A stretch of DNA of 64,000 bases from Variovorax fucosicus (GTDB lineage Bacteria; Pseudomonadota; Gammaproteobacteria; Burkholderiales; Burkholderiaceae_C): contig NZ_JASZYU010000001.1 in NCBI RefSeq assembly GCF_030316825.1, positions 806,001-870,000 of the forward strand, in the 5' to 3' direction. Numbering within the stretch: the stretch's first letter is position 1; every line of letters starts with the position of its first letter. Below are positions 35,833-58,458 of this stretch, in pieces. The notes beneath the pieces were generated by a model that was given only the letters and a program-made list of their open reading frames with translations, did not search any database and had not been told where the DNA came from. The translations under genes were made by a program, and so were the position numbers.

Positions 35833-35893
35833 GAAAATTTTCTACCGTGCAATCGCAACACTGTGGCCCGAAACAGCCTCTGCCTCTTCGCAA

Positions 35894-35987
35894 AACACCG
35901 CGGAACCGGCTCCGCCGGGCCGCAGGTGTTGCCCCCGGTAGGGGGTTGGCGAAGCGACACGAAGTGCGCGAAGCCTGGGGGCGAGCC
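35894..35987 (-). repeat. Dispersed intergenic hairpin repeat, copy A (sspA-sspB gap)
   Basis: A 94-bp element with three hairpins: AACACC-GCGG...CCGC-GGTGTT enclosing CCGGC/GCCGG; CCCCC/GGGGG; and CAC-gaa-GTG. It lies 2 bp past the sspA stop. It differs from copy C at four of 94 positions. It has no reading frame of its own. Confidence 0.85.
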
Positions 35988-35989
35988 TA

Positions 35990-36601
35990 TTATTTGCGCA
36001 TGACCTTTTCGGACGGCGTCAGTGCCTCGATATAGGCCGGGCGCGAGAAGATCCGCTCGGCGTACTTGAGCAGCGGCGCAGCATTCTTGCTGAGGTCGAT
36101 GCCGTAGTAGTCAAGACGCCAGAGCAGTGGCGCGATCGCCACATCGAGCATCGAGAAGTTGTCGCCCAGCATGTACTTGTTCTTGAGGAACACGGGTGCG
36201 AGTTGCGTGAGGCGGTCGCGGATGTGCGCACGTGCCTTTTCGAGCGCCTTCTCGTTGCCCTTGGCGGTGCGATTCTCGAGCGTCGACACGTGCACGAACA
36301 GTTCCTTCTCGAAGTTGAGCAGGAACAGGCGCACGCGCGCGCGGTCGACCGGGTCGCCGGGCATCAATTGCGGATGGGGGAAGCGCTCGTCGATGTACTC
36401 GTTGATGATGTTCGACTCGTACAGGATCAGGTCGCGCTCGACCAGAATCGGCACCTGGCCGTACGGGTTCATCACGCTGATGTCTTCGGGCTTGTTGTAG
36501 AGATCGACGTCGCGGATCTCGAAGTCCATGCCCTTCTCGAACAGCACGAAGCGGCAACGATGGGAGAAAGGGCAGGTCGTTCCTGAATACAAAACCATCA
36601 T
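35990..36601 (-). CDS. sspA: Stringent starvation protein A (GST-like)
   Basis: A 203-residue glutathione-S-transferase-fold protein that binds RNA polymerase and acts in stress and stationary phase. The thioredoxin-like N-terminus is MMVLYSGTTCPFSHRCRFVL, with VPILVERDLILYESN near 50-64 and an all-helical C-terminal domain. TAGGAG precedes ATG 36601. It follows petC, separated by a strong terminator. Confidence 0.93.
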   Translation of the reverse strand: MMVLYSGTTCPFSHRCRFVLFEKGMDFEIRDVDLYNKPEDISVMNPYGQVPILVERDLILYESNIINEYIDERFPHPQLMPGDPVDRARVRLFLLNFEKELFVHVSTLENRTAKGNEKALEKARAHIRDRLTQLAPVFLKNKYMLGDNFSMLDVAIAPLLWRLDYYGIDLSKNAAPLLKYAERIFSRPAYIEALTPSEKVMRK

Positions 36602-55289: not shown

Positions 55290-55296
55290 TTCGGGG

Positions 55297-55388
55297 AACA
55301 CCGCGGAACCGGCTTTGCCGGGCCGCTGGTGTTGCCCCCGGCGAGGGGGTTGGCGGACCACACGAAGTGGGGGAGCCTGGGGGAGAGC
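55297..55388 (-). repeat. Dispersed intergenic hairpin repeat, copy B (hisG-hisD gap)
   Basis: A 92-bp relative of copies A and C. The AACACCGCGG...CCGC-GGTGTT stem is kept, with a TTT loop and a changed bulge base. CCCCC/GGGGG and CACGAAGTG are also kept. It begins 1 bp after the hisG stop and ends 7 bp before the hisD ATG. It is the most diverged of the three. Confidence 0.8.
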
Positions 55389-55389
55389 T

Positions 55390-56025
55390 TCATATCGCGG
55401 ACGCGAAGGCGTCGATGATGCGGCGGATCGGCTCGCGCTTGAGCTTGAGCGCGGCCTGGTTCACCACCAGGCGGGCGCTGATGTCCATGATGCGTTCGAC
55501 CTCCACCAGGTGGTTGGCCTTGAGCGTGTTGCCAGTCGAGACGATGTCGACAATGGCGTCGGCCAGCCCGGTCAGCGGCGCAAGTTCCATGCTGCCGTAG
55601 AGCTTGATCAGGTCGACGTGCACACCCTTGGCGGCGAAGAAGTCGCGCGCGATGGCGACGAACTTGGTCGCAATCTTGAGCCGCGCACCCTGGCGCACTG
55701 CGTAGGCGTAGTCGAAATCGGCGCGCGCCGCCACGCTCATGCGACAGGCCGCGATTTTCAGGTCGAGCGGCAGGTAGAGACCCGCCGTGCCGTGCTCGAG
55801 CATGGTGTCGAGCCCGGTCACGCCGAGGTCGGCACCGCCCCACTGCACGTAGGTCGGCACGTCCGACGGACGCACCAGCAGCACGCGCACATCGGGCTGC
55901 GTGGTCGGCAGGATCAGCTTGCGTGATTTTTCCGGATCTTCGGTGACCTCGATGCCGGCGGCGGCAAGCAGCGGCAGGGTCTCGTCGAAGATCCTGCCTT
56001 TGGACAGAGCGATCGTGATCGTCAT
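55390..56025 (-). CDS. hisG: ATP phosphoribosyltransferase, short form HisG
   Basis: A 211-residue catalytic subunit for histidine step 1 (ATP + PRPP to PR-ATP), the pathway's feedback point. The start is [20 protein letters not shown], with [14 protein letters not shown] and the PRPP loop [13 protein letters not shown]. It lacks the C-terminal regulatory domain, so it needs HisZ, which is not in this window. ATG 56025 overlaps the murA stop by 4 bp. Confidence 0.96.
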
Positions 56026-57573: not shown

Positions 57574-57595
57574 AGAAGTACTTATTCATGGGGGA

Positions 57596-57689
57596 AACAC
57601 CGCGGAACCGGCTCCGCCGGTCCGCCGGTGTTGCCCCCGGAAGGGGGTTGGCGAAGCGACACGAAGTGCGCGAAGACTGGGGGCGAGCC
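57596..57689 (-). repeat. Dispersed intergenic hairpin repeat, copy C (permease-bolA gap)
   Basis: A 94-bp element differing from copy A at four positions, all in loops, bulges or unpaired bases in my pairing. It lies 4 bp after the ABC permease stop and 22 bp before the BolA-family ATG. Confidence 0.85.
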
Positions 57690-57693
57690 ACAT

Positions 57694-58458
57694 TCACCCG
57701 CGAATCTTGTAGCCGATGCGCAGCAAATGCACGGCAACGGCACTGACGACCAGCCAGGCCGTGCCGACGATGCCGAGGCTCAACCAGGGAGAGGCATCGC
57801 TGATGCCGAAGAAGCCGTAGCGAAAGCCGTCGATCATGTAGAAGAAGGGGTTCAGGTGGCTCACGGTCTGCCAGAACGGCGGCAACGAGCTGATCGAATA
57901 GAACACGCCCGACAAGAAGGTCATGGGCATGATCAGGAAGTTCTGGAACACCGCCATCTGGTCGAACTTTTCGGCCCAGAGCCCGGCGATGAGCCCGAGC
58001 GTGCCGAGCATGGCCGCCCCCAGAAACGCGAACACGACGATCCACAGCGGCGCCACGAAACCCGGCATCGCGAAGAACACGGTGACGACGAACACGCCGA
58101 GCCCGACCGCCAGCCCGCGGATCACCGACGAGCCCACGTACGCCAGGAACCAGCCCCAATGCGACAGCGGCGTGAGCAGCACGAACACCAGGCTGCCCAT
58201 GATCTTGCTCTGGATGATCGACGACGAGCTGTTGGCAAAAGCGTTCTGCAGCACGCTCATCATCACCAGCCCCGGCACCAGGAACGCGGTGTAGCTCACC
58301 GTGCCGTACACCTTCACATGGTCTTCGAGCACATGGCCGAACACCAGCAGGTAGAGCACGGCCGTCAGCACCGGCGCACCGACGGTCTGGAAGCCGACCT
58401 TCCAGAAGCGCAGCGTTTCCTTGTAGAGCAGCGCGTGCCAGCCGGTGACGTTGATCAT
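57694..58458 (-). CDS. ABC-2 type permease (YadH-like)
   Basis: A 254-residue permease of the ABC-2 exporter family with about six membrane spans (SYTAFLVPGLVMMSVLQNAF and LIMPMTFLSGVFYSISSLPP are typical). It pairs with the upstream ATPase, whose stop overlaps its start by 4 bp. The pair resembles E. coli YadGH, located near mla/murA genes in many proteobacteria. The exported substrate is unknown. Confidence 0.9.
   Translation of the reverse strand: MINVTGWHALLYKETLRFWKVGFQTVGAPVLTAVLYLLVFGHVLEDHVKVYGTVSYTAFLVPGLVMMSVLQNAFANSSSSIIQSKIMGSLVFVLLTPLSHWGWFLAYVGSSVIRGLAVGLGVFVVTVFFAMPGFVAPLWIVVFAFLGAAMLGTLGLIAGLWAEKFDQMAVFQNFLIMPMTFLSGVFYSISSLPPFWQTVSHLNPFFYMIDGFRYGFFGISDASPWLSLGIVGTAWLVVSAVAVHLLRIGYKIRG

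Follow-up and report, generated by a model that had tools for sequence, protein, structure and literature searches.

A hairpin repeat of Comamonadaceae lies mostly in one orientation directly past stop codons and may be retained as an element of the transcript

Why does a hairpin-forming sequence of 94 bp recur three times within 64,000 nucleotides of the Variovorax fucosicus genome (the whole stretch analysed here, hereafter the window), and is it, as an initial annotation proposed, under selection for RNA structure? The three copies lie where that annotation had placed them, and its letter-by-letter description of them was confirmed. The strand that it described is antisense to the flanking genes, the sense strand of the repeat being the minus strand of the window, and it overlooked both the stop codons 2 to 6 nt away and an extension (antisense TTCSNGR ahead of AACACC) that makes the conserved unit ∼7 nt longer. 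Copy A occupies 35887–35985 on the minus strand (core 35894–35985 plus a conserved 7-nt tail at 35887–35893) in the spacer between sspA and sspB, and starts 4 nt past the TAA stop codon (35990–35992, minus strand) of the sspA-like gene (35990–36601), which encodes a GST-fold protein. Copy B (55290–55387, minus strand; core 55297–55387 plus tail) lies between hisG and hisD, 2 nt past the hisG stop codon TGA (55390–55392, minus strand). Copy C (57589–57687, minus strand; core 57596–57687 plus a tail that fits the tail consensus poorly) separates an ABC-2 permease gene from a bolA-like gene and begins 6 nt past the TGA stop codon of the permease gene (57694–57696, minus strand). Read on the minus strand, the copies precede sspB, hisD and the bolA-like gene. 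Neighboring genes were named by protein family matches, and sspA by its GST fold together with its position ahead of sspB.

Read in the sense direction, the unit consists of the stop codon, 0 to 8 nt, G-CTCG-CCCCC, the hairpins S1 (core CAC-TNC-GTG), S2 (CCCCC/GGGGG) and S3 (AACACC-GCGG-CCGGC/GCCGG-CCGC-GGTGTT), and the tail YCNSGAA, that is, a 92-nt core plus tail with a GC content of 0.62 to 0.79. In copy A, on the minus strand throughout, a conserved CCCCC run adjoining the stop codon (C1) lies at 35977–35981, S1 (GCGCAC-TTC-GTGTCGC, with a bulged T) at 35954–35969, the almost invariant S2 at 35932–35945, and S3, which shows the strongest covariation of all parts, at 35894–35930. The S1 stem also covaries, and the second base of its loop is free. 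Judged by eye, a G precedes the repeat at position −1 in 78% of copies and the right end, YCNSGAA, is sharp; past it, letters are random save for three or four purine-rich positions. Exactly 4 of 94 positions distinguish copy A from copy C (26, 31, 46, and 81 on the plus strand), all unpaired in the model structure, and GGTGTT is preceded by A in copy A, T in copy B, and C in copy C, as the initial annotation had reported. With 40 of 92 positions unpaired, four unpaired changes are weak evidence alone, and the genome-wide set decides.

Assembling that set showed that the family is far larger than three copies, both in this genome (5.8 Mb, 16 contigs) and in its relatives. By blastn we found at least 40 copies (40 of 162 candidates scored), 29 of which were used to build a covariance model, R1; with this model, 120 copies were detected at E ≤ 0.001 (150 candidates scored). 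A degenerate core pattern allowing up to two mismatches gave 133 matches, 84 of them exact, and the pattern read backwards gave 65. The copies used for model building, like those taken from relatives, came from the best-scoring ends of the lists, and weak copies are therefore undersampled. Among 108 distinct copies of this genome aligned with MAFFT, 1,607 of 1,620 S3 cells were paired, the outer six pairs occurred in 21 forms, and compensated double changes numbered 97, compared to 13.4 ± 3.2 in 500 shuffles (maximum, 24) and 6 to 15 in slid controls. These counts exclude 9 of 117 copies with another right arm, a truncation, or a misalignment. S2 had no double changes and no covariation in the same genome. 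At the outer pairs of S1, 22 of the 26 unpaired cells, at two pairs, were paired insertions split by the alignment; variation in S1 takes the form of compensated substitutions and of paired insertions (GCGGCAC/GTGTCCGC). In the relatives, 99.3% of the cells of all helices were paired, with 243 double changes compared to 49.0 ± 5.6 in shuffles and 13 to 30 in slid controls, in an alignment (94 distinct of 101 copies) that was fitted to the model and leans on it. Non-majority letters were rarer at paired than at unpaired positions of the own-genome copies (0.049 versus 0.160), so that the equal frequencies which would speak against structural selection are absent. Selection on base pairing through compensating changes is thus well supported.

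The plan of the unit is kept more than its sequence: besides the S1 insertions, S1 is swapped for an unrelated hairpin in some genera, and other parts are exchanged as well. Four own-genome copies (C1:502518, C7:872768, C8:155326, and C11:258239) retain the left half and carry at the right end another GC-rich hairpin, whose loop is TTCG; this is a right-arm exchange. In the hisG-hisD spacers of three Variovorax genomes (L215, L216, and L217), an element that shares the plan but few of the letters lies close past the hisG stop codon. Folding was mildly better than that of shuffled sequence as RNA (z = −1.5 to −3.2, six strands) and somewhat better as DNA with the tail (z = −3.0 to −3.6, four strands); since such values are expected of GC-rich hairpins, we do not use folding energy as an argument. 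The DNA fold suggested a closing helix between the TTCG tail and an internal TTCGCC, which covariation does not support: among pattern-fitting copies, its covariation total was reached by 75 of 1,000 shuffles for 90 own copies and by 23 of 1,000 for 41 related ones.

We then related the copies to genes, which were predicted with a purpose-written codon-usage caller (93% of the window called coding) rather than taken from curated annotation, except at four plasmid sites. Position was analyzed for 117 of the 120 copies; three lacked 1-kb flanks in the loci retrieved. The upstream gene was on the same strand in 109 of the 117 copies, and one copy lay inside a called gene. The stop codon was found at −5 to +8 nt from the repeat in 104 copies and at −5 to +15 in 106, with a median distance of 2 nt among the 109, and a random intergenic place and strand, drawn within the window, falls within 12 nt past a same-strand stop codon in 6.7% of cases. 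Divergent genes flanked a single copy of the 117. The downstream gene was on the same strand in 87 cases and facing in 30, and in 75 of 117 a same-strand gene began no more than 100 nt downstream, from which we infer that transcription continues through the repeat into the next gene. Terminator-like signals within 60 nt past the repeat were detected in 4 of the 86 copies that precede a same-strand gene, and the repeat usually sits in what looks like a transcription unit. In relatives, the upstream gene was on the same strand in 91 of 101 copies and the stop codon lay at −5 to +8 in 72 of 101, a set in which two places are counted twice because loci L127 and L148 overlap; for other genera, the count was 56 of 78. 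At the four of seven plasmid hits with public annotation, the orientation agreed in all four, at distances of ∼0, 32, 5, and 7 nt. There were exceptions: for 7 of 117 own copies and 9 of 101 related ones, the gene on the stop side was on the opposite strand, and for another 5 own and 19 related copies it was on the same strand but had its stop codon outside −5 to +8. The latter include copies that come second or third in a tandem array, distant from any stop codon. In some cases the repeat itself provides the stop codon (CTGACCCCC and CTAACCCCC). Carrier genes end in TAG (35 of 106) and TAA (24 of 106) more often than the other called genes (64 and 41 of 367; Fisher P = 0.001 and 0.004, respectively).

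Strong GC hairpins directly past stop codons, with a facing gene downstream in 24 of the 110 own copies that have a same-strand upstream gene, are what transcription terminators would look like. However, the downstream consensus YCNSGAA contains no T run, and the repeat sits inside the hisG/hisD and sspA/sspB spacers. Separate terminator-like signals were moreover detected past the repeat in 7 of the 24 facing-gene cases. It is therefore very unlikely that the repeats are terminators.

All 21 Variovorax genomes searched contained the repeat, in 16 to at least 150 copies each (150 scored), and within the family the covariance model matched 98 of 150 genomes and 92 of 141 genera. A class-wide draw, run with stricter filters under which weak matches can be lost, gave matches in 2 of 274 genomes, both of the same family. 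Polaromonas, Curvibacter, Rhodoferax, Pseudacidovorax, Xylophilus, and Hylemonella are named carriers among the matches listed, and seven plasmid records from Variovorax and a Comamonadaceae bacterium carry the repeat as well. No copies were found in phages, nor in viral contigs, the latter searched with one exact pattern. Rfam models detected only two tRNAs in the window at gathering cutoffs; the region of copy A had no match up to E = 1, and six related loci had none at gathering cutoffs. Mean identity was 0.775 to 0.873 within genomes compared to 0.68 to 0.78 between genera (6 to 20 copies each, chosen by score), in favor of amplification specific to each lineage. Tandem copies occur in the related loci L204, L154, and L152, with three copies 96 nt apart in L204. 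We also observed four tandem copies with a 132-bp spacing in V. paradoxus 110B (C3:340806, 340938, 341070, and 341202), possibly a variable-number locus.

Two sites of the window were compared with their orthologs, in both cases in 30 loci that were the best scoring of 61 genomes, a choice that favors filled sites. Between sspA and sspB, the repeat was present in 10 of 30 loci (spacer, 137 to 157 nt) and absent in 20 (16 to 44 nt); between hisG and hisD, it was present in 2 of 30, the divergent element of the same plan in 3, and neither in 25. A given site thus holds the repeat in some species and lacks it in others, which shows that the repeat spreads. Of nine orthologous sspA-site copies from other species, two were nearest to the sspA-site copy of this genome and seven to its other copies, a split that leaves room both for vertical descent and for replacement or repeated gain. 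Filled and empty sites were too diverged to display a target-site duplication, and by eye the alignment revealed no overall terminal inverted repeat.

A candidate mover was sought among Y1 transposases, as the initial annotation had advised for REP-type enzymes. The genome has a single Y1 transposase gene, whose score of 77.4 bits falls just under the 80-bit cutoff of the NCBIfam model for REP-associated transposases. Among 22 other genomes, 20 have one Y1_Tnp gene (in one case below the Pfam cutoff), one has two, and one, although it carries the repeat, has none. In 13 Y1_Tnp loci of ∼3.3 kb each, we obtained no model match up to E = 1. The RAYT-like gene itself lies ∼6 kb beyond the right end of the window (L031, 1171–1866, on contig C1), and in several Variovorax genomes it is found ∼15 kb from hisG; given this shared location, it looks vertically inherited. 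Its own 3.3-kb locus contains no copy of the repeat. To find an autonomous partner between closely spaced copies, 8 of the 21 genes enclosed by 13 close pairs were scanned; seven were ordinary (a peptidase, binding proteins, transporter parts, a GTPase, and an aminotransferase), and one had no Pfam match. Integron attC sites likewise follow stop codons in a fixed orientation. The core-site letters of attC were not seen in the repeat, which makes this assignment unlikely.

The main rival to a cellular role is a selfish single-stranded-DNA element, whose one-strand fold would serve its own copying, as in REP/RAYT and IS200/IS605, and which would gather past stop codons either through the loss of insertions elsewhere or through a target site that looks like a stop codon. 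The enrichment of TAG and TAA at carrier genes and the sharp right end both suit such an element, and so do details of S1. Counted with the fixed pattern CACnnnGTG, because a simple loop finder misplaced many S1 loops, the antisense S1 loop reads CAC-GNA-GTG in 107 of 117 own copies (83 GAA and 24 GCA) and in 61 of 101 related ones (44 GAA, 16 GCA, and 1 GGA), that is, G and A are kept and the second loop base is free; the bulged S1 base is invariant in own copies. By the simple loop finder, the antisense S2 loop is often GGNA or T-GCA-A. As DNA, loops of the C-GNA-G and C-GNNA-G types have unusual stability, and the antisense GNA loop thus suggests that the strand antisense to the gene folds as DNA, or that an antisense RNA is made. 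On the other hand, purging from bad sites alone predicts many other intergenic copies in both orientations, which we did not see, and no cognate transposase was recognized, since none of the 13 Y1_Tnp loci scanned contained a model match. We consider purely selfish copying possible, if tentatively so.

We attempted to call the folding strand by the balance of G-U and A-C wobbles in S3, and this was abandoned because the two sets contradict each other: own copies have 2 G-U (one of them at the outermost pair, tallied under S2) and 11 A-C, and relatives have 10 G-U and 3 A-C. Of the claim that structure is selected at the RNA level, the part concerning pairing therefore stands, with double changes far exceeding shuffles and slid controls in two alignments, and the folded molecule may be RNA or single-stranded DNA.

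The C-rich runs raise a further possibility, a translation-controlled switch in which C1, by the stop codon, and a second run in S2 (C2) compete for one G run. C1, C2, and the G run are CCCCC, CCCCC, and GGGGG, respectively, in 105 of 117 own copies, and in three related copies C2 and the G run have changed together (TCCCC/GGGGA), where the C1 of L202 would still fit. However, the C1 of L205 no longer fits fully, L140 has no recognizable C1, and C1 shows single changes that the G run does not follow. These changes weakly disfavor the two-C-run switch, which we regard as most unlikely.

Among described repeats, the closest is the Beta-proteobacterial repeat element BRE, which is ∼90 bp long with 69% GC, forms tandem copies a few nucleotides apart, and occurs in Bordetella and mostly in Comamonadaceae, with Polaromonas sp. 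JS666 the richest host at 29 copies (Hot et al. 2011, PMC3110155). None of the 13 Bordetella loci listed there lies between divergent genes; candidate regions were identified with RNAz, and the authors state that no function can yet be suggested (PMC3110155). Size, GC content, tandem arrays, host range, and the near absence of divergent flanks are thus common to BRE and the repeat described here, and JS666, with 29 reported BRE copies, gave 102 model matches under our different search settings. The available text of that paper differs from the present account in presenting no analysis of compensatory changes across copies and no stop-codon rule (PMC3110155). The two are probably members of one superfamily, compared by description and not by letters, and for this reason we do not file the repeat as BRE. 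In Bordetella, the transcript bprJ contains BRE and is antisense to the genes on either side (Hot et al. 2011, PMC3110155); by the same descriptive likeness, our repeat could encode small antisense RNAs. Its strand would then be fixed relative to the upstream stop codon for no obvious reason, and we think such RNAs quite unlikely as its explanation.

The REP/RAYT systems offer a second comparison, having many dispersed palindromic copies near coding ends, with GTAG REPs often supplying a TAG stop (PMC2817692, PMC3733652). As far as those accounts describe them, REPs resemble our repeat in being palindromic, extragenic, and numerous (here, 120 copies, with 1 of 117 inside a called gene) and in the usually single Y1 transposase gene per genome. 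They differ in length, at 20 to 40 bp, whereas here three different hairpins occupy ∼100 bp; in addition, our repeat has a fixed orientation, shows no GTAG/GTGG or CGTC head where its ends were read by eye, and does not flank the Y1_Tnp genes in the 13 loci scanned. The Bor repeats of Bordetella are likewise hairpin repeats near coding regions but are 26 to 30 bp long (PMC1590033). We found no stop-codon rule or compensatory pattern for the repeat in the portions of the literature consulted, and an earlier description may exist in the genome paper on Polaromonas JS666, cited for MITEs in a review. A text search with a fragment of the repeat listed papers that were unrelated by title.

Taken together, the strict one-way placement past stop codons and the apparent transcription units make an element of the 3′ untranslated or intercistronic RNA the best explanation in our judgment. 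Specifically, a repeat with the copy number, cross-genus spread, filled and empty sites, fixed orientation, stop-codon anchor, and pairing conservation observed here would be a non-autonomous, ∼100-bp, REP-like dispersed element of Comamonadaceae that is retained as such an RNA, a reading that we hold with even confidence. The repeat would be copied around genomes and kept where it begins the 3′ untranslated or intercistronic RNA, and would be transcribed along with the upstream gene. The chain of S1, S2, and S3 would then lie inside or just ahead of the terminating ribosome and could protect the upstream message against 3′-to-5′ decay. It may also delay termination or recycling, in the way described for E. 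coli REPs near stop codons: those no more than 15 nt away reportedly stall ribosomes (PMC12306157, citing another study), and 446 of 4,072 REP calls, or 260 of 496 in an earlier study cited there, lie that close (PMC12306157). From the parts of that report at hand, the likeness lies in a hairpin within reach of the terminating ribosome; the difference is that here 106 of 117 own copies sit at −5 to +15 and in one orientation. Since in-frame stop codons can hardly be marked by DNA sequence alone, insertion or retention might itself be read out from translation termination, either by copying through mRNA or a ribosome-exposed R-loop, or by cellular selection of the repeat as a general modulator of termination and message 3′ ends at more than 100 genes; we regard this stronger version as doubtful.

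Although short hairpin repeats often occur near gene ends, most of them have no explanation; what is new here is the stop-codon anchor. The repeat unites strict orientation, an anchor within a few nucleotides of the stop codon, heavy compensatory change, and more than 100 natural copies per genome. With it, the old question of whether repeats of this kind work on the mRNA or simply shelter behind genes becomes directly testable, and our data point to a spreading element that acts on gene ends or is tolerated there alone.
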